A stretch of DNA of 64,000 nt from Mycobacteroides immunogenum. GTDB lineage: Bacteria > Actinomycetota > Actinomycetes > Mycobacteriales > Mycobacteriaceae. Below the pieces are notes generated by a model. It ran no database searches. It saw only the letters and a program-made list of their open reading frames with translations, and was not told where the DNA came from. Position numbers and translations under genes: made by a program. The stretch is taken from contig NZ_CP011530.1 of NCBI RefSeq assembly GCF_001605725.1, forward strand, positions 1,922,001 through 1,986,000. Direction: 5' to 3'. This document shows, piece after piece, positions 28,811 through 62,554 of the stretch. The first letter of the stretch is position 1. Each line of letters starts with the position of its first letter.

Positions 28811-28884
28811 GGGGCGGTAGCTCAGTTGGTTAGAGCCGTGGACTCATAATCCATTGGTCGCGGGTTCGAGCCCCGCCCGCCCTA
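28811..28884 (+). tRNA. tRNA-Met (CAT), intact
   Basis: 74 nt fold as a complete cloverleaf: acceptor ggggcgg/ccgccct (G1-U72 wobble), D arm gctc/gagc, anticodon arm gtgga-ctCATaa-tccat, T arm gcggg-ttcgagc-cccgc and discriminator A; CCA is not encoded. Elongator Met is most likely, but a CAT tRNA could also be the modified Ile type. The 3' part serves as the left att site of the 33.7 kb element, and integration keeps the tRNA intact. Confidence 0.95.
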
Positions 28885-28885
28885 C
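28843..28885 (+). repeat. attL: 43-bp direct repeat, copy 1
   Basis: From ctcataatcc to cgccctac within the 3' half of tRNA-Met; identical over 43 bp to 62512-62554, and the flanking bases differ (a vs t on the left, a vs t on the right). The crossover lies somewhere inside. Confidence 0.93.
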
Positions 28886-28942: not shown

Positions 28943-28965
28943 ATGGTCGGTTTATGGTCGGTTTA
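28943..28965 (+). promoter_or_regulatory. Tandem 11-bp repeat near attL (candidate integrase arm sites)
   Basis: Two copies of atggtcggttt at 28943 and 28954 (period 11), overlapping the 3' end of the integrase gene. The same tandem pair, with one mismatch, occurs near the other end at 62380 and 62391. Short direct repeats just inside both ends of an element are what tyrosine integrases bind with their N-terminal domains. Confidence 0.65.
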
Positions 28966-30219
28966 GGACTTGCGAGGTTTCCTGGGTTTCGGCCCACGGA
29001 CGGCCTTCTCGACCAGCGCGGCGGCATCATGGTGCACTCTGTTGCGCTGGAGATAGTGCTTGAGTGTGGTCGCCACGTTTGTGTGTCCGAGCACGTCAGC
29101 GGCGATGCGGGGGTCTGACCTCTCGTCGGTGACCAGGTTGCCCAAGGTCTTCCTGAAACTATGGCCGGTGGTCTTTTCCAGGGTCTCACCGAGAGAGGCG
29201 CGGGCTTTCCGCCACTGCTTGGCGAAGTTGTTGGTGTCACGAAGTGTGCCTATCGAGGAGGGGAAAATGAGGTCCATTCCGCCAGGTCGTGGTTCGGCTG
29301 CGCGAGCAACCAGCATCTCCACGGCGAACTTGGGCAGTGCGATGACCGGGGAGACACCCTTACGTGATTCATCGTTGACGGGTTGGCGCAACAAACCGAT
29401 TCCGGTCCCGCGTACCACGCGACCTGTGACCTGAATCGTCTTGTCGGCAGGGGCGAATTCCTTCCATCGCAGCGCGAGGATCTCGCTAACTCGCAACCCG
29501 GTGGCGATATGCATGAGGATGGGGTCTGTAAGGTCGGCTTCGAGACAGTAGTCGGATGTTGCGAGCGCGTTCAGCACTGCGGGCAGTTGAGCTGCTTCAA
29601 TGGGTTCCGCTGCTTTGCGTTTGGGCGTCTCGGGCTTCGCTCTCGGTTTCGGTGGAGCAGCGATAACACGGGCAGGGTTAGTATCCACGACACCATCGCG
29701 CACCGCCTCATCGAGAACTCGAATCAGGTTGCCGCGCAATTGCTTAGCTGTAGTGTGACCATGCTGCGCCTGCACAGCCTCCAGGATTCGGTAGAGCCGC
29801 CCAGGTGTGCACTCGCCAACCGTCAGTCCTTCAGCGTTAGCGTTCCAGTAGTTGAACCGCAGCCTGTAGGTGTCCCGTGTCCGCACCGGCTCGTTATCTT
29901 CGACCATTCTGTCGAGCCGTCTCTGCAGCAGGGTTGTGACCCGCGTGTTTTTGCTAATAGCACCGTCCTCGGAATCGGTCGCTGCCAAGGGGGATGTCCG
30001 TCGCAGTTCTTCGATGTGTTGCAGGAGCGCCTGCTCAGCGGCGGCACCATGACGGTCGGTGACACCCAGCGGCGTCCGCTTCCGTGGGCGCAAGTCGTCG
30101 CCTGACAGGTCGCGGTAGTAGCACCGCGCCTCCCACTTTCCAGGACCGAGTTGCGTCCGCTTCACCCTTCCGTGCTGGCCGAGCCCGAGTCCAGGTCTAC
30201 CCATCGTCGCCCCCGTCAC
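28963..30219 (-). CDS. int: Tyrosine recombinase (integrase) of the 33.7 kb element
   Basis: 418 aa from GTG 30219 (ATG 30204 is an alternative). Complete active site: R243 (GLRVSE), K287 (SRKG), H353 and R356 (GHSFRKT), H379 (LGHT) and nucleophile Y389 (LKHYL). N-terminal arm-binding (about 15-60) and core-binding (about 90-185) domains precede it. It lies directly beside attL. The start overlaps the end of the XRE repressor gene on the same strand, so the two are cotranscribed. Confidence 0.95.
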   Translation of the reverse strand: MTGATMGRPGLGLGQHGRVKRTQLGPGKWEARCYYRDLSGDDLRPRKRTPLGVTDRHGAAAEQALLQHIEELRRTSPLAATDSEDGAISKNTRVTTLLQRRLDRMVEDNEPVRTRDTYRLRFNYWNANAEGLTVGECTPGRLYRILEAVQAQHGHTTAKQLRGNLIRVLDEAVRDGVVDTNPARVIAAPPKPRAKPETPKRKAAEPIEAAQLPAVLNALATSDYCLEADLTDPILMHIATGLRVSEILALRWKEFAPADKTIQVTGRVVRGTGIGLLRQPVNDESRKGVSPVIALPKFAVEMLVARAAEPRPGGMDLIFPSSIGTLRDTNNFAKQWRKARASLGETLEKTTGHSFRKTLGNLVTDERSDPRIAADVLGHTNVATTLKHYLQRNRVHHDAAALVEKAVRGPKPRKPRKS

Positions 30220-44470: not shown

Positions 44471-44688
44471 GTGTTACGTTGAGTGAAGCGGCAAACTAGG
44501 CAAACTCACCCTATTAACTTCTATAGGGGAAATACACGCCTTATAGGCAAAACAGGCATCCATATACGTCCATACGCGCGACCTGGTGTTTTATAGGGAC
44601 ATGACAGCCTGCAGAGGGTGTGTGTATTTCCCCTATAGAAGTTAATAGGGTGAGTTTGCCTAGTTTGCCGCTTCACTCAACGTAACAC
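44471..44688. repeat. Palindromic unit R1: 67-bp perfect inverted repeats around an 84-bp spacer
   Basis: Arm 44471-44537 is the exact reverse complement of 44622-44688. The spacer 44538-44621 is the exact reverse complement of the spacer in R2 (45441-45524). Arms contain ctatagg/cctatag-type motifs (cttctatagggg, ccctattaac). The outer part of the arm reads gtgttacgttgagtgaag. Confidence 0.95.
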
Positions 44689-45381
44689 CCTGGGTGGATT
44701 CGTGCCCACTGCGCATTCACGACACTGAGCGTCGAACACCCCCACTATTCTATGTGAATTACATCACACCACCGTGTGGTGGACGGTATTTTCTCATCAA
44801 TGGCAACCGCGATAGCTATGGGGACGTGCATGGCACTTCACCTGCCTTGAAGCTCAGTCGAACCTCTGAATCTTCATGTTATCCCAGCGTAACACCTATA
44901 TTTGCACTCTCAGTGATACCGGTAGAGCTGTTGATTTCGCCTGGATTTTGGCGAGTTGGAGCGTAGTCTGGAGGCTATGAGCAAATCGCGAGTGGTGCAC
45001 GTTCCACTAGAAACGGTGGGTGCTTGCGCAGGGCGCAAGCACCCACCGTTTCTAGTGGAACGTGCACCACTCGCGATTTGCTCATAGCCTCCAGACTACG
45101 CTCCAACTCGCCAAAATCCAGGCGAAATCAACAGCTCTACCGGTATCACTGAGAGTGCAAATATAGGTGTTACGCTGGGATAACATGAAGATTCAGAGGT
45201 TCGACTGAGCTTCAAGGCAGGTGAAGTGCCATGCACGTCCCCATAGCTATCGCGGTTGCCATTGATGAGAAAATACCGTCCACCACACGGTGGTGTGATG
45301 TAATTCACATAGAATAGTGGGGGTGTTCGACGCTCAGTGTCGTGAATGCGCAGTGGGCACGAATCCACCCAGGGTGTTACG
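44681..45381. repeat. Large palindrome U1/U1': 349-bp perfect inverted repeats, 3-bp centre
   Basis: 44681-45029 and 45033-45381 are inverted copies separated only by agg (45030-45032). The centre is the small palindrome cttgcgc-agg-gcgcaag. 44681-45029 is also a direct repeat of 45584-45932, 903 bp away, where the sequence is the leader and first codons of the gene at 45880. Identity of the copies is supported by the same 90-residue frame in each. Confidence 0.95.
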
Positions 45382-45942
45382 CATATGACAGCGGCAAAAC
45401 AGGCAAACTCACCCTATTAACTTCTATAGGGGAAATACACACACCCTCTGCAGGCTGTCATGTCCCTATAAAACACCAGGTCGCGCGTATGGACGTATAT
45501 GGATGCCTGTTTTGCCTATAAGGCGTGTATTTCCCCTATAGAAGTTAATAGGGTGAGTTTGCCTGTTTTGCCGCTGTCATATGCGTAACACCCTGGGTGG
45601 ATTCGTGCCCACTGCGCATTCACGACACTGAGCGTCGAACACCCCCACTATTCTATGTGAATTACATCACACCACCGTGTGGTGGACGGTATTTTCTCAT
45701 CAATGGCAACCGCGATAGCTATGGGGACGTGCATGGCACTTCACCTGCCTTGAAGCTCAGTCGAACCTCTGAATCTTCATGTTATCCCAGCGTAACACCT
45801 ATATTTGCACTCTCAGTGATACCGGTAGAGCTGTTGATTTCGCCTGGATTTTGGCGAGTTGGAGCGTAGTCTGGAGGCTATGAGCAAATCGCGAGTGGTG
45901 CACGTTCCACTAGAAACGGTGGGTGCTTGCGCCCTGCGCAAG
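45023..45942. repeat. Inverted repeats of 418 bp around the R2 spacer
   Basis: 45023-45440 is the reverse complement of 45525-45942, with the 84-bp spacer 45441-45524 between. It includes the R2 arms (outer part gtgttacgcatatgacagcg, different from R1) and the whole U leader on each side. The match ends inside the gene at 45880, just past its own small palindrome cttgcgc-cct-gcgcaag. Confidence 0.95.
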
Positions 45943-46125
45943 GGCAAGTCTCCGAGTGCTGTTCGGGCGGCTATCTCGGACGGAAGACTTCCCGCTATCA
46001 CCGCGACAGCACCAAATAGGCGAGCCTATTATCTCGTCCGCCCTACTGATGCTGATGCGCTCTGGGATCACCCGGAATCCTTGAATGCTAGTGACATCGA
46101 GGAGCTGCTGAAAGTGGCTCTGTAG
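45880..46125 (+). CDS. Small HTH-like protein upstream of replication genes
   Basis: 81 aa from ATG 45880 with ctggagg upstream. The central part SPSAVRAAISDGRLPAITATAPNRRAYYLVRPTDADAL resembles an excisionase/MerR-type winged helix. Its leader and first ~20 codons are the sequence duplicated in the palindromes. It heads the operon with the two following genes and may be the replication or copy-control regulator acting on the palindromic region. Confidence 0.65.
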   Translation: MSKSRVVHVPLETVGACALRKGKSPSAVRAAISDGRLPAITATAPNRRAYYLVRPTDADALWDHPESLNASDIEELLKVAL

Positions 46126-46209: not shown

Positions 46210-46923
46210 ATGGGCGCAAACTTCAGCGCTTCCCCGAAGACCGTTCCCGCCGACCCGTTCGCAGCCTTCAGGACACGGCGCGGTCTGCGCGACTTCGCGC
46301 TGCGGCTGCTGCACCTTCCGCACGAGCTGGCCCCGGAGTCCCGCGCGTCCTGGGCGATCCCCGCGTGGAAGATCCTGGCCGCTCAGCACCGCCGGCTCGC
46401 CGCGCTGCACCGCGCACTTGACGCCGCCGACCTGGCGGCGGTGACCGAGTGGGCGCATGCGGGCGTGTCCGACACCAGTGGTTGGAACCGCGAGGTGGTG
46501 GAGCTGTCCGAGCAGGCAGGGGAGCTGGCCGAGGCGCTGGAGCACGCCGAGCCTGAGGTCGCCGCACGGTACGGGTTCGGCGACCTCCCCGGATGCGTGT
46601 GGTTGGCGTGGGGACGAGCCGTGGACGACTTCGAGACCGCAGTCGCGGCGGCTCGTCCCGCCGACGCTGCCGAGGTGCTGCGCGGCCTCGCGGGCTTGAT
46701 CGTCAACATCGCCAGCTCGGCGTTCACCTTGCGCCGTGACGACGAGCACGGCTACGCCGTCGAGCTGGACGCGCTGCTGGCCGGACTGGGGTTCAGCGCC
46801 CGAGACCTGCCGATGCTGCGAGCGACCGCCCGCCGCGAGCACCTCACGGTGCCGCAGCCCCGCGCCACCGACGACCCGGTGCGACTGATGTTGGCTAGTT
46901 CTATCAGTGAAGGGCGGGACTGA
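46210..46923 (+). CDS. Hypothetical protein of the replication module
   Basis: 237 aa from ATG 46210 (acaggag upstream). Ala/Leu/Arg-rich helical protein with many Trp in the first half (SRASWAIPAWKILAAQHRRLAALHRAL). Two bp before the primase gene and presumably cotranscribed. No known domain recognised; AICE-type replication modules often have an unnamed partner gene here. Confidence 0.62.
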   Translation: MGANFSASPKTVPADPFAAFRTRRGLRDFALRLLHLPHELAPESRASWAIPAWKILAAQHRRLAALHRALDAADLAAVTEWAHAGVSDTSGWNREVVELSEQAGELAEALEHAEPEVAARYGFGDLPGCVWLAWGRAVDDFETAVAAARPADAAEVLRGLAGLIVNIASSAFTLRRDDEHGYAVELDALLAGLGFSARDLPMLRATARREHLTVPQPRATDDPVRLMLASSISEGRD

Positions 46924-46925
46924 CC

Positions 46926-49286
46926 ATGACCGAGACGGTTATTGAGCTGCCCGCGCAGCCGCTGAACGACAGGGACAGGGAAGTCCTGATCTCGGGAGCT
47001 GCCTGCACCCAGGAGTTCCTGGACTCCAACCCACATTTGGTACGGTCGGTCGAGACCTCTGTGGACCGCCGTCTGGGGGTGGAGCGCGACCCTTGGTCGC
47101 ACCTGAGCTGCCCCGCGCGCGGTCAAATCTATTGCTGGTACTCGCTGGACGAGGATGCCGAGGCGAAACATCAGTACCGTCCTGACAGCCCCGGCGAGCA
47201 CGGCAAATACCAGTTCGAGGTTGGCAACGCACCGAGCTACGGTGTTGTCCGCAAGGGCAGCGATGACGGAACCATCTACTTGGTCGAGGGCTTCAAGAAG
47301 GCTCTTGCCGCCGCAGCGACGCTGGGTCTGGCCGGGGACACGGACACCGCAGTCATCGCGCTGCCCTCATGCACGAGTTGGAGCACGGGAGAATGGTCGC
47401 CCGATCCCGCGCTGACGGGATTCGTCGCGGGCCGCGAGGTGATCGTGTTTCTCGATGCGGATGCCGCGACCAACCCGGACGTGTACGCGGGGGGTGAGCG
47501 CCTGCACTCGGCGCTCGATGGTGCTGCTGAAGGCATCAGGTTCGCGCAAGTCCCAGGCGGAGGAAAAAACGGCCTCGACGACTATCTGACTGTCCTTGAC
47601 GCGGGGAAGCGTCCGGGTGCGCTGGAACGCCTGTGCCGCAAGGCGATTGTCGGCAAGCCCGCACCGAAACGTCCGACCGGCAAGAAGAGCAAGAAAGGTG
47701 AGGTCGGCGCTGACGACGGGTGGATGTTCACCGAGTCGGGGAAGCTCCGTCCCGACACCATCGCCCGTCACATCTTGGTTGAATTCCCGGTGGCCGCGAC
47801 GACGAGTCATGAGCTGGCCGTCTACGACAACGGCGTGTACACGCGGCACCCGTCGGCAGTGAAGGCTCTCGTGGGTGGACTGCTCAAGGATCAGTACAAC
47901 ACCGGGAATCTCACCAACATTGTCGGTCGGCTGGAGGGCCTGTGTTTCGAGGAGCACCGGGTGCTGCCCGACCGCGCCAGCGAGCCGCTGTTGAACTGCA
48001 AGAACGGCATGCTGGACTTGCGCACCCTGGAACTGAAACCCCACGACCCGTCCTATCTGTCGGGCAGGCAAATCCCCATCGAGTGGGATCCCGACGCGAC
48101 CTGCCCCACGTACGACGCATGGCTGGAAGACCGCGTGGGCAAGGCCCAGGTGCCTGTGGTGAACGAGGCCATCTCCCAATTCCTGGACCCGTCGCGCACG
48201 CCGAGCAAGGCGCTGTTCCTGTTCGGGCCGTCGCGCTCGGGCAAGAGCACCATCCTGCGGTTGGCCAAGGCTCTCGTGGGCGGCGAGGAGTCAGTGTCAG
48301 CGCTCACCCTCCAACAACTCGCGGACGACCATTTCGCTGCCGCCGAGCTGTTTGGCAAGCCCATCAACGTCTGCCCCGATCTGCCCCGGAACCATGTCAG
48401 TGATGTGTCGGTGTTCAAGCGCGTGACGGGCGACGACCCGATCACGGCGAACCGCAAGTATGGCGCGATGTTCACCTTACGGTCGAACTCTTTGTTCCTG
48501 CTGTCGGCCAACGCGATTCCCACGGTCGCCGGCGATGACATCAGCGCCTACTTGAACCGCGTCGTCCCTGTAGTTTTCCCGAAAACATATGCGGGGCGAG
48601 AAGACTCGTCCGTCGAAGACGAGATGATGAAAGAGCTGCCGGGAATCCTCGTCAAGTGGGTGCTCGCCCGCCGCGCTCACATGCAGCGCACTCAGTGGAC
48701 ACCTCCGCACCCCGCCGTCTGGGAACGCTTCAGCGGCGCGGTGGACAGGGTGGCGCAGTTCCTCAGCACTTGCTGCGACGTAGGTGGAGCCACGTTCCCG
48801 TACAACCCCATCACGACGCCCGGCACGTTGAGCACGCCTCGGGGGCGCGCCGTCTGGTTCCCCGGGCAGCGCGCCACTCTCACTCAGCTCCACTCCGCGT
48901 TCCTGGACTGGTCATTGGGCGGAGCCGACATGAGCTTTGAGTCATTCAAGGAGCGCGTGCTCACCGCGCCCGGGGTGCGGAACAAAGTCCGCGACCCGGC
49001 GCGCAGCGGCGGGCGAACAACCAACGTCGTCATCAAATCCCGTGATGATTGGGGTTCGACTTCCAAGCACGCCGACCTGGCGAGCATCCTGTTCCCCGAC
49101 GAGGCCGACGACATCGACGACATCGACGAGTCGGCGGGCGTGCAGAACGTCACCCCGATCACCCGGCCGTTCGGGCGAGGATTCCGTACCTCTGCGGCGA
49201 TGCCGGTGCCACCAAGGCTCGACGAGGACGCCACGGAAGCCACCGGCACCGCCGCGCGCGGGCGGTACACGTCAGACTGGATCTAG
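46926..49286 (+). CDS. Primase-helicase: TOPRIM-like (DUF3854) plus D5/SF3 helicase
   Basis: 786 aa. N-terminal part (about 110-235) has a TOPRIM-like domain of DUF3854 type: VEGFKKALAAAATLG and EVIVFLDADAATNPD, then GGGKNGLDDYL. From about 330 a D5-N domain (LLNCKNGMLDLRTLELKPHD) leads to an SF3 helicase with Walker A GPSRSGKST near 434-442. This is the layout of P4-like plasmid and phage primases. It should start and unwind replication of the excised element; the palindromic region upstream is the likely origin. Confidence 0.88.
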   Translation: MTETVIELPAQPLNDRDREVLISGAACTQEFLDSNPHLVRSVETSVDRRLGVERDPWSHLSCPARGQIYCWYSLDEDAEAKHQYRPDSPGEHGKYQFEVGNAPSYGVVRKGSDDGTIYLVEGFKKALAAAATLGLAGDTDTAVIALPSCTSWSTGEWSPDPALTGFVAGREVIVFLDADAATNPDVYAGGERLHSALDGAAEGIRFAQVPGGGKNGLDDYLTVLDAGKRPGALERLCRKAIVGKPAPKRPTGKKSKKGEVGADDGWMFTESGKLRPDTIARHILVEFPVAATTSHELAVYDNGVYTRHPSAVKALVGGLLKDQYNTGNLTNIVGRLEGLCFEEHRVLPDRASEPLLNCKNGMLDLRTLELKPHDPSYLSGRQIPIEWDPDATCPTYDAWLEDRVGKAQVPVVNEAISQFLDPSRTPSKALFLFGPSRSGKSTILRLAKALVGGEESVSALTLQQLADDHFAAAELFGKPINVCPDLPRNHVSDVSVFKRVTGDDPITANRKYGAMFTLRSNSLFLLSANAIPTVAGDDISAYLNRVVPVVFPKTYAGREDSSVEDEMMKELPGILVKWVLARRAHMQRTQWTPPHPAVWERFSGAVDRVAQFLSTCCDVGGATFPYNPITTPGTLSTPRGRAVWFPGQRATLTQLHSAFLDWSLGGADMSFESFKERVLTAPGVRNKVRDPARSGGRTTNVVIKSRDDWGSTSKHADLASILFPDEADDIDDIDESAGVQNVTPITRPFGRGFRTSAAMPVPPRLDEDATEATGTAARGRYTSDWI

Positions 49287-49296
49287 GAGAAGTGAC

Positions 49297-49578
49297 ATGA
49301 CCGCCGCCGAACACGACCCGTATCCCGAGCTTCCCGCCCTCCCGCGCGCCGTGCAGCTCGCCTGTCAGACCATCGAGCCCGAGCACCTGACTATGCCGAC
49401 GGAAGACCTGCACGCGGTAGTTGAGGTCAGCCAGTCCATCCACAACTTTGTTTCCCACTGCATCTCGCACCGGGGCACCGAGACGGTGGACATGACCACG
49501 TATCAAGCCCTACTCGCTGTCCAGCGGGTCGTCGAACAAGCGCTGAACGACAGCGGGGACGTGACGCCCAGTGAGTAG
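49297..49578 (+). CDS. Hypothetical small protein
   Basis: 93 aa from ATG 49297 (ggaga upstream). Helical and acidic, no signal or membrane segment, two Cys. It lies 10 bp after the primase gene and overlaps the DUF2637 gene by 8 bp. Position suggests a role in replication or spread; no family recognised. Confidence 0.55.
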   Translation: MTAAEHDPYPELPALPRAVQLACQTIEPEHLTMPTEDLHAVVEVSQSIHNFVSHCISHRGTETVDMTTYQALLAVQRVVEQALNDSGDVTPSE

Positions 49579-50491
49579 CCAAAGCCCTTCAGCGCCAACG
49601 ACAATTGCCCCCATGAGCTACGTCACCAAACGGGAAGCCGAGCAGGCGGAAGCCCAAGCCACCGTCTCGACCCTCCGCGCAGACAGGCGCTTCCTGTGGT
49701 GCTGGCTCACCGTCGCCACCATGCTCAGTGTTTGCGGAAACGTCGGACATGCCTGGCTCACCGTTCCACCCGGAACCGCCCAAGCCCTCGCAATCGGGTG
49801 GGCAATCGCCCCGCCCACCCTGCTCATGCTTGCCGTGCACGGACTCCCGACGCTGAGCCGCATGCTCGGCTCCGAGCGCTCTGACCGACTCCTTTCCGCC
49901 GTCGTGTGGGGAGTCACGATGGGCGCGTTCGGCTGGAGCGCGTTCGGCATCCACGACTTCACCGCCGCGCTCGGAGTGCCCTCCACGTTGAGCTGGGTCG
50001 CGCCCGCTGTCATCGACTTGAGCGTGTTCGGTGCGACCAGGGGTCTTGTTCTCACCAGCCCGCTCGCGGCCCGTCTCAAGGTCGGCGCGCCATCACCCCG
50101 CGCCGCGCAACCACAGCTCAGCAAAGGTTCCACACCCACTCCCGCGCCGCGCCAAGCACCTTCAGCCGCGCCGACCGCCGCGCCTCCCGCGCCGCGCAAC
50201 GTCTCCACGGACGCGCCAACCGCCCCGCGTTCCGCGCCGACCACCGCGCCACAGAACGGTGCTGGCGCGCCCAGCCCCGCGCCCGAGCTGGTGCGCCTGG
50301 CTGAGCACATCGTGGGGAGTCGGGCTGTCCGTCAGGATGTTCGCACGGTGGCTCGCATCCTCGAACTCTCGGAGACCGAGAGCAGGAAAGCCGTCATTGC
50401 GGACAGGGTGGGTGTTCACCATTCCACGGTGAGCAAGGTGCTGGAGTCCGCCGAGCTGGAACGCCGAGCAGCCCTCACCCTGGCGTCCTGA
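49571..50491 (+). CDS. DUF2637 membrane protein with C-terminal HTH-like region
   Basis: 306 aa from GTG 49571. About four membrane helices in residues 40-165 (FLWCWLTVATMLSVCGNVGHAWL and following) match DUF2637, a domain found on SpdB-like spread proteins of actinobacterial conjugative elements. A long Ala/Pro linker (175-235) leads to a helical end with VARILELSETESRKAVIADRVGVHHSTVSKVL, a helix-turn-helix pattern. It may tether plasmid DNA to the membrane. It is directly followed by the 12-bp repeat array. Confidence 0.78.
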   Translation: MSSQSPSAPTTIAPMSYVTKREAEQAEAQATVSTLRADRRFLWCWLTVATMLSVCGNVGHAWLTVPPGTAQALAIGWAIAPPTLLMLAVHGLPTLSRMLGSERSDRLLSAVVWGVTMGAFGWSAFGIHDFTAALGVPSTLSWVAPAVIDLSVFGATRGLVLTSPLAARLKVGAPSPRAAQPQLSKGSTPTPAPRQAPSAAPTAAPPAPRNVSTDAPTAPRSAPTTAPQNGAGAPSPAPELVRLAEHIVGSRAVRQDVRTVARILELSETESRKAVIADRVGVHHSTVSKVLESAELERRAALTLAS

Positions 50492-51211: not shown

Positions 51212-51544
51212 GTGGGAAAGTGGATTGCTGTTGCGCTCCTGGGTCTTTCGGGGATGTCGATTCTCTCTGAGTACCCCCTGTGGGGAGTCGGACTCATTGG
51301 GGTAGCGGGGCTCATCGTGTGGATGAGCCTGCAGGGTCGTCAGTCGGCACGGGTCGAGCGGAGCCGCCCAGTGGCCGCGCGGAGCGCCCGCGCCGAGGTG
51401 CAACAGGAAGTGAACTCGGCGCAGCGGGACGCGAACCGCGCTGTGCGGACGCAGGTGGAGCGCGCCCGCCGTGAGGCGCAGCGGAACTTGTCCGGCGCGG
51501 TGGCGCGGGTCGAGCGCGAGCAGGCGCAGCGGTGGTCGGCGTGA
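51212..51544 (+). CDS. Membrane anchor with coiled-coil tail
   Basis: 110 aa. GTG 51212 follows an aggaggt ribosome site (51200-51206); an earlier GTG lies inside that site. Two hydrophobic helices (about 4-19 and 23-41) and a long charged helix (50-108, rich in Arg/Glu/Gln/Ala) that would extend into the cytoplasm. Its stop overlaps the start of the translocase, which has no membrane segment of its own. It may be its detached membrane anchor. Confidence 0.62.
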   Translation: MGKWIAVALLGLSGMSILSEYPLWGVGLIGVAGLIVWMSLQGRQSARVERSRPVAARSARAEVQQEVNSAQRDANRAVRTQVERARREAQRNLSGAVARVEREQAQRWSA

Positions 51545-53412
51545 GTCGTCAGCAACGTCGCGCGGCGGCGTATCGGCGCGCAGAACGACGTGAAGATTTC
51601 ATGTGGCAGCGCGGCATCAAGCAGCAAGATGCGCGCCTCGACGCCATCGACCGTGATGAGCGCGACGCAGAGCGTGAGTGGGAAAAGTTGTCCGAGAAGG
51701 TCGCGACCATCGAGTCGCGGGCACGCCAGGACGCCGAAAAGGCCGTCGCGGAGATTCAGCGCCAGGCTGCGTCAGAGGAGAAGCGCGTGTTGAGCACGCC
51801 CTTGGTGAGATACAGCGGCGCGGGCCACCTGCGCCCGCCGCTGTGGGTGTGGCATATGAAGAGTTCCATGCCTGCCGCACTTGCCGCGCGGGTAGGAATC
51901 ACGGGCTCCGAGGGTGGCCCACTCCTCGTCCTGCGCGCGGGCGGTGGCGTTGCTGAGAGCGACTTGGCTCGCAGCGTCATCGCCGCCGAACTTCCCGAAA
52001 TCTCGGGTGACCCCGCGTTCGTCGGGTGGAGTGACCAGACGGTTTCTCTGCTCCCCGAGGTGGCGCAGCGGTACTCGATTCTGGAGAAACTGCGCGACGA
52101 CGACTGGATGGCGCACGTGCTGGAGAGCGCGGGGATCACGAGTACGAACACCACGACGGAGAGCGTGGCGGGAAAGTACGGGGTTGTCGAGAGGAAAGTC
52201 ACGACCGTGACCGTGCCGAGCCTGTCGGACGTTCGTGTGACTCGGACAGGGTTGCGGTTGACGTTCGCCCATCAGCCAGGTCGGTCGGCGAAAGATTGGA
52301 ACTCCAAGATTGACGCCCTGCGCGCTGGGCTGAAAGCGGCGGGGCTCGACGCCTCGAACATGCGGATTTCGGACGGTGCGGGCGGGACGGTCGTTCTCCA
52401 CATGAACGACGTTGACCCTTTTTCCGGCCAGAGTCCAGAGAGCGGACGGTTCGATGTCGAGCGCGGTCGGAGCCTGTTGGGCATCACTGAGTCGGGCGAC
52501 GAGTGTTGGATTACGTGGAACGGCTCCAGCGGTCTGGTTGTCGGCGGTGTGCCAGGTTCGGGCAAGACCGCCTCCCTCCTTCCCGTGCTCGCGGGGATGG
52601 CTGGGCAGTGCGAACTTCACGTGTTCGACGGCAAGGCGGGATTCGATTTGCACCCCCTTCGTCATATCTCCAGCACGTACGACCGTTCTGGTGACATCTC
52701 TGCTCCTCTCGAAACTCTGAGGAAGCTCGATGCTCTGCGGACTGCCCGTGCCGAGGCGATGTACTCGACGCTGAACGCCAGCAATTTCTGGAATCTCACA
52801 CAGTCCCAGCGCGACCAACTCGGGGTGAAACCCGTGTTCTGCATCCTCGATGAAGTACAGACGTGGACGGACACGAGCGGCATGGACAAAGAAGAAAAAG
52901 CCATCGCCGCCGAGTGCATCAAGCTGGTTCGGACGCTCGTCCAGAAGGGTCGGAGTGCTGGAGTCATCGTTGTCTTGACGACTCAAAAGCCCGATGCCAC
53001 TTCGATTCCGACTGTCATCCGCGACAACGCAGCTTTGAAAATTTGTTTCCGAGTTTCGACTCCAGAACAAGCCATCACGGTGCTCGGTCGGCAGTCGCCG
53101 AACGCGCCAGACCCGACCGAAATTCGTATGGACACAAAGGGTCGCGGAGTGATGGAAACTGAAGGACACGGCATCGTGTTGTTCCAAGCGGGCTACAAAG
53201 AACCGTCCGAACTCGACCGTGAGCTGGCACGGCACAAGCCCGTCGAGGACCAGTTCTCCGTGGCTTCTCGGCTCCTCGGCAAGACCCAAAAAGTCGTGTC
53301 ACGTCCCACCGCACCCGAGCCCGCCGATGAGCCCCGAACTGCTGTCACGCCCCCTGTGCGCGAGGCGGACGAACACCCGAAAATGACTGGAGTGGAAGGG
53401 TTCTCATTGTGA
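51541..53412 (+). CDS. traB: FtsK/SpoIIIE-type DNA translocase, TraB-like
   Basis: 623 aa from GTG 51541. A charged coiled coil (1-85), a middle region (about 90-310, RPPLWVWHMKSS...RAGGGVAESDL) and an ATPase domain: Walker A GGVPGSGKTAS (~335-345), Walker B VFCILDEVQ, and LTTQKPD, the FtsK-type sensor. No membrane helix. In actinobacterial elements such proteins form hexamers that pump double-stranded DNA between cells. The 12-bp array upstream is its likely target. Stop overlaps the next start. Confidence 0.88.
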   Translation: MSRQQRRAAAYRRAERREDFMWQRGIKQQDARLDAIDRDERDAEREWEKLSEKVATIESRARQDAEKAVAEIQRQAASEEKRVLSTPLVRYSGAGHLRPPLWVWHMKSSMPAALAARVGITGSEGGPLLVLRAGGGVAESDLARSVIAAELPEISGDPAFVGWSDQTVSLLPEVAQRYSILEKLRDDDWMAHVLESAGITSTNTTTESVAGKYGVVERKVTTVTVPSLSDVRVTRTGLRLTFAHQPGRSAKDWNSKIDALRAGLKAAGLDASNMRISDGAGGTVVLHMNDVDPFSGQSPESGRFDVERGRSLLGITESGDECWITWNGSSGLVVGGVPGSGKTASLLPVLAGMAGQCELHVFDGKAGFDLHPLRHISSTYDRSGDISAPLETLRKLDALRTARAEAMYSTLNASNFWNLTQSQRDQLGVKPVFCILDEVQTWTDTSGMDKEEKAIAAECIKLVRTLVQKGRSAGVIVVLTTQKPDATSIPTVIRDNAALKICFRVSTPEQAITVLGRQSPNAPDPTEIRMDTKGRGVMETEGHGIVLFQAGYKEPSELDRELARHKPVEDQFSVASRLLGKTQKVVSRPTAPEPADEPRTAVTPPVREADEHPKMTGVEGFSL

Positions 53413-62511: not shown

Positions 62512-62554
62512 CTCATAATCCATTGGTCGCGGGTTCGAGCCCCGCCCGCCCTAC
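62512..62554 (+). repeat. attR: 43-bp direct repeat, copy 2 (tRNA-Met 3' fragment)
   Basis: Identical to 28843-28885; carries the anticodon loop to the acceptor end of tRNA-Met without the 5' half, so it is not a working tRNA. Confidence 0.93.

Follow-up and report, generated by a model that had tools for sequence, protein, structure and literature searches.

Tandem inversion duplication (TID) and origin-containing rearrangements of the ODIRA kind have an inverted middle copy and turns at short pre-existing inverted repeats, and in ODIRA the segment includes an active origin. In quasipalindrome correction by template switching, an imperfect inverted repeat is made perfect and its loop is inverted. 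The origins of P4-type, SaPI-type and pRN1-type replicons have iterons or an inverted repeat adjoining the primase/helicase gene, and actinomycete integrative and conjugative elements (AICEs) are tRNA-integrated and carry a tyrosine integrase, a replication gene and an FtsK-like translocase.

In the window (the whole 64-kb stretch of DNA analyzed here), a 218-bp inverted repeat, R, and the 341-bp leader of a primase operon, U, together form an inverted triplication (Table 1). Its nearest known kinds are TID, ODIRA and quasipalindrome correction, and we regard it as a rearrangement of a known type whose location is unusual. As in TID and ODIRA, the order is A-B-B'-B with the middle copy inverted, both turns lie at short pre-existing inverted repeats (the 7-bp repeat of the first gene, and the R arms, which are single in relatives), and a candidate origin, the conserved replicator-like R, lies inside. 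Unlike in TID and ODIRA, the segment is only about 0.56 kb, one turn falls within the putative replicator's own inverted repeat, and R1 appears to carry an extra local correction. Judged against an ancestor reconstructed from relatives, R1 would show the perfected arms and inverted loop of quasipalindrome correction; here, two alternative corrections (X/X' and Y/Y') would adjoin in one rearrangement.

Table 1. Features of the palindromic triplet and of the element that carries it (positions in the window).
Feature	Position	Strand	Remark
attL	28843..28885	+	43-bp direct repeat, 3' end of tRNA-Met
Tyrosine integrase	28963..30219	-	
R1 left arm, type X	44471..44537	+	GTGTTACG box, X block
R1 left-arm iterons, GGCAAA twice, 9 nt apart	44490 and 44499	+	
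R1 spacer T'	44538..44621	-	inverted relative to spacer of two nearest relatives
R1 right arm X'	44622..44688	-	perfect complement of X
U copy 1	44689..45029	+	leader and first codons of small gene; stops at turn
Center of large palindrome, 3 nt	45030..45032	.	agg; gene has cct
U copy 2	45033..45373	-	inverted
R2 left arm, type Y	45374..45440	+	
R2 spacer T	45441..45524	+	orientation as in relatives L032 and L033
R2 right arm Y'	45525..45591	-	adjoins native leader
U copy 3	45592..45932	+	native primase-operon leader
81-aa protein, first in operon	45880..46125	+	HTH-like by eye
7-bp inverted repeat cttgcgc-cct-gcgcaag in gene	45926..45942	+	turn site
237-aa protein	46210..46923	+	homologues directly upstream of primase in four relatives
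P4-family primase/helicase	46926..49286	+	TIGR01613, D5_N, DUF5906
306-aa protein	49571..50491	+	secondary phrog match: excisionase
FtsK/SpoIIIE-like, weakly TraB-like translocase	51532..53412	+	
attR	62512..62554	+	second copy of 43-bp repeat

The whole structure reads F-X-T'-X'-U-(agg)-U'-Y-T-Y'-U-gene, where X and Y stand for the 67-nt arms, with 9 differences between the two types, and T for an 84-nt spacer. An earlier note, made from the letters alone, had listed three perfect inverted pairs, and we recovered all of them at the same positions and lengths: R1 (67-nt arms, 100% identity, 84-nt spacer), U1/U1' (349-nt arms, 44681-45029 / 45033-45381, around the agg center) and the R2-centered pair (418-nt arms, 45023-45440 / 45525-45942, 100% identity, 84-nt spacer). 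The U1/U1' pair extends further, to 559-nt arms (44471-45029 / 45033-45591) at 97% identity, with 18 mismatches because R1 and R2 differ at 9 of 67 arm positions, counted twice. R1 thus differs from R2, though either repeat is perfect within itself, a point that the earlier note does not make, and the 341 nt of U are identical in all three copies, U2 being read as the reverse complement. When the window was scanned, these three were the sole inverted pairs scoring at least 25 within 1.5 kb; a chance origin of the palindromes was rejected, as the 64 kb hold no other such pairs. A search of the 5.57-Mb genome with R-U DNA gave four matches, all at this locus (44471-45942), and the source assembly is a single contig with a completeness of 100.

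U1 stops at the turn and U2 faces away. The third U retains the native leader, as the earlier note had also read it, and the primase operon is therefore intact. The turn does lie at the proposed small palindrome cttgcgc-NNN-gcgcaag: the 7-bp palindrome of the gene is copied there, with agg replacing cct. The GTGTTACG box is found inside U as well (44888 and 45791, and 45167 in the inverted copy). The hairpin predicted for R2 by itself is stable (−90.7 kcal/mol, z −23.7), and the distance from the end of R to the small gene is 289 bp, compared with 353-377 bp in relatives.

The 43-bp direct repeat at tRNA-Met bounds an element of about 33.7 kb with the tyrosine integrase alongside. Like an AICE, this element is tRNA-integrated, with att sites at the tRNA gene, and has a tyrosine integrase, a replication gene and an FtsK-like translocase. 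Unlike that of an AICE, its translocase, a candidate transfer protein that matches phrog_1358 (E 6e-34), reaches just 28.4 of 800 bits with the NCBIfam TraB model, far under the cut-off. The 81-aa protein gave no match to Pfam or NCBIfam and a weak match to a phrog of unknown function; in L032, L033, L042 and L043, a homologue of it (phmmer E 3e-10 to 1.5e-12) is encoded between R and the primase. Three further related primases are encoded in the same genome and share other genes with the window element; we refer to their loci as putative sister elements. Close primases carry Mycobacteroides labels, and 13 primases, several labelled Mycobacteroides abscessus, are at 84-89% identity.

We then carried out the comparison of relatives that the earlier note had proposed. 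Of 13 full-length relatives, 11 have an R-like inverted repeat, as a single copy, 285-1597 bp upstream of the primase, and none of the 11 shows an inverted triplicate. The 13 contain near-duplicates (L042 of L032; L075 and L046 with common iterons), and L077 was left out of them as a copy of L047. The 11 include three Streptomyces phages, which are the first 3 among the 1051 phage records that matched a primase; plasmid records with such a match numbered 178. In L076, the R-like inverted repeat lies 4.06 kb upstream of the primase, and none was found when the primase locus of Segniliparus (L047) was searched. All four relatives that have a small-gene homologue show the order R-leader-small gene-primase, and two of the four are near-identical. 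At the DNA level, R-U searches gave no match in 147 other congeners, in phages or in plasmids, and viral contigs searched for R motifs gave none. R as a mobile insertion was rejected, since the genome has no other copy and the position in relatives is comparable.

Taking these comparisons into account, we favor with moderate confidence a recent, probably neutral and unstable triplication of replicator and leader by template switching in this strain, and we infer that the triplet is located in living DNA. The ancestor, as reconstructed from relatives, would have had one R with unlike arms, in the order F-X-T-Y'-U-gene. On the path we propose, the nascent strand would have switched templates several times between both parental strands at inverted repeats. 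A switch at the inner arms of R would have left R1 as X-T'-X', and the next would have taken place at the outer 8-bp box. A switch at the 7-bp palindrome of the first gene would have made the turn and inverted its center to agg. A second switch at the inner arms, now those of R2, would have given Y-T-Y' before the return to the native operon. The product would be an inverted triplication of replicator and leader, with the operon kept whole by the third copy, and direct-repeat recombination across 903 bp would delete the triplet.

The arms of R are consistent with such a path. Numbering arm positions from the GTGTT box, we compared single-copy relatives that have this box, and their arms differ at positions 8-11 and 44 (L032/L042), 8-12, 1, 43 and 44 (L033) or 8-10 (L043); leaving end bases aside, these differences fall in a single block next to the box. 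In the window, X and Y differ at positions 9-11, 13-16 and 26-27, that is, mainly in the block where the relatives' arms differ, so R1 and R2 look like alternative perfect versions of one imperfect ancestor. Which arm X derives from is not decided by sequence likeness (5 vs 5 and 4 vs 5 matches of 11 with the relatives' arms); we take it as distal from its adjacency to the unique flank. Y is weakly proximal-like (6 vs 4 and 6 vs 3).

Aligned to L032 and L033, the R2 spacer scores 41 and 46, values reached by 0 of 2000 single-base shuffles, and the R1 spacer scores 16 and 18; R2 alone retains the spacer orientation of these two nearest relatives. Among the 12 relatives whose spacers were compared, L044 also leans to the R2 orientation (0.7% of shuffles), L081 (0.1% of shuffles) and L043 (3%) lean to that of R1, and seven are uninformative on orientation. 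Such a pattern of R1/R2 arms and spacers would be expected if copying switched between template strands at inverted repeats. The loop orientation supports the path and does not prove it, because recombination between the long arms can also flip the 3-nt center and the 84-nt spacers.

The earlier note had suggested two fold-back switches. A template switch at the 7-bp palindrome is compatible with the sequence, but more than two switches are required, because R1 needs one in and one out, its right arm and spacer being unlike the inferred ancestor. A simple self fold-back for every turn was rejected: the agg center and the spacers are inverted relative to the fold-back expectation and better fit switching to the opposite strand. 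If real, the triplet preserves a series of template switches at one replicator, and its arm block, spacer orientation and center orientation are detailed enough for a path to be proposed. It would then also suggest that inverted amplification in bacteria can start from the inverted repeat of an origin itself.

Further perfect fold-backs were found in the same assembly. One (C1:650220-650587; L118:220-587) has 172-bp arms and a 24-nt spacer in a proline-rich coding region, where, as read by eye, the proline-rich frames differ between its two sides. Another (C1:958275-958465; L119:8275-8465), with 70-bp arms and a 51-nt spacer, lies in a gene whose product has a transglycosylase domain (PF06737), and the likely C-terminal part of that gene is in another frame. 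The third (C1:3948730-3948934; L100:18730-18934), with 88-bp arms and a 29-nt spacer, is in a sister element and breaks the homologue of the window gene for the 306-aa protein. In all three cases, the reading frame of the gene appears to be shifted. Two fold-back genes compared with 20 other genomes gave short partial matches only. Sampling at hand-chosen positions, we found perfect fold-backs in 2 of 54 non-element stretches of this assembly (1,080,000 bases) and in 1 of the 6 stretches that flank elements (120,000 bases); the second background sample contradicted the idea that fold-backs are limited to such elements.

These fold-backs bear on whether the triplet is a library or assembly artefact, that is, in vitro template switching or a mis-resolved fold-back in a strain with one R and one U. 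We consider this doubtful, though a serious candidate. Besides the three apparently frame-shifting fold-backs in coding regions of the same assembly, it is favored by copies that are perfect and without decay, and by the eight congeners, where 0 of 40 stretches (800,000 bases) had a perfect fold-back and the best inverted repeat scored 34. This excess is suggestive and not significant, as the own-genome rate including the window (4 loci in 1.264 Mb) would lead us to expect about 2.5 in the congener control. Read duplication would yield identical R copies, but the arm blocks of R1 and R2 differ and are internally compensated, which argues against it, while in vitro switching would look alike. 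Also against an artefact, the native strand is resumed on either side of the fold-backs, as far as the flanking frames show, unlike in a read with a missing adapter, and the assembly is complete and in one contig. Either the genome or the assembly undergoes frequent template switching; if it is the assembly, several gene breaks are flagged in one complete assembly. The earlier note's argument from maintenance to function fares poorly here, since similar perfect fold-backs in unrelated genes point to recent origin or artefact.

R itself looks like the element's replicator, an origin function suggested by its conserved layout and position. We read R as the putative cis-acting replicator that serves the P4-type primase operon of this mycobacterial integrative element; it comprises a GTGTT box, a variable block and two iterons spaced by 9 nt per arm, with the arms inverted around a spacer. 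As at iteron-type origins of P4-family primase replicons, iterons lie beside the primase gene, here in inverted arms. R adjoins the primase/helicase gene as do P4-, SaPI- and pRN1-type origins, and differs from them in having two iterons per arm as inverted pairs. The earlier suggestion of an origin thus stands for R alone, whose layout and position are conserved in relatives, and not for the palindrome itself.

In a stricter test, the inverted arms had to contain a repeat with a period of 8-11 and a run of at least 5; it was applied to 32 primase/helicase loci (L018, L041, L048 and L053 were left out). A match by the primase/helicase gene was found in 18: 12 within 1.6 kb upstream, 1 (L076) at the 4.06 kb noted above, and those in L078, L079, L091, L092 and L094 at 1.1-1.6 kb past the start of the helicase match. 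The 14 failures were L043, L082, L047, L050 and 10 loci whose helicases are more distant; in L043 and L082 the inverted repeat is present and tandem iterons are absent. Two further matches lay off target, one being a fold-back in L033 and the other a weak match in L075, and dinucleotide shuffles gave 0 matches in 658,868 bases. Nine of the 11 R-bearing relatives pass, eight with a period of 9 nt and L081 with a period of 8. The iteron letters vary among elements while the layout is constant. The iteron pattern of the sister elements was searched for in the window and is absent; therefore, the layout is common and the letters are not.

Could R instead be an operator for the small protein or a clt-like transfer site? 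We think this unlikely, and the triplication mechanism would be unchanged by it. The GTGTTACG box inside U and the FtsK-like translocase of the element would fit such a role. However, inverted repeats also precede the primases of the three phages, with no translocase named in the annotation of the 12 kb around the primase, and those of L044, L045, L046 and L075, which lack a homologue of the small gene. As a replicator, the inverted two-iteron element beside P4-type primases of mycobacterial elements and Streptomyces phages would be a concrete origin candidate for a large family, a byproduct that may outlast the triplet finding.

Two readings give the triplet itself a wider meaning. It seems improbable that the strain forms perfect fold-backs chromosome-wide by frequent inter-strand switching and that, at the element's origin, this process made the triplet a natural bacterial counterpart of ODIRA, a palindromic double replicator excisable or amplifiable as a closed dumbbell. 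We find it very improbable that selection maintains the double replicator as a functional form, be it a replication intermediate (hairpin or dumbbell) or an origin of greater strength. The predicted stability of the R2 hairpin, the conservation of R beside the primase and the operon left whole agree with selection, but none of the R-bearing relatives has the inverted triplicate (L081 has small nested inverted repeats within its arms), like fold-backs occur in unrelated genes, and no sign of selection for the triplet was seen. An invertible switch, in which the operon would be controlled by inversion between the arms, whether site-specific or homologous, had also been suggested and has next to no probability: the long inverted arms make inversion possible, but it would change only a 3-nt piece, an 84-nt piece or a self-complementary block, moving no promoter or gene.

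In the phages phiSAJS1 (L080:4290-4566), Mischief19 (L081:4247-4571) and Geonosis (L082:4470-4620), a long inverted repeat lies shortly upstream of the primase, and we propose these repeats as origin candidates on the basis of sequence. Inverted pairs of 9-nt iterons were observed at L091:6115-6295, L092:6214-6321 and L094:6172-6347, about 1.1-1.2 kb past the start of the distant-helicase match. Finally, two other congeners have a related inverted repeat (L170:10614-10816 and L182:11778-12052), with arms that start CGCGAGCGTGCGTGTCTGC and spacers of 137 and 151 nt.
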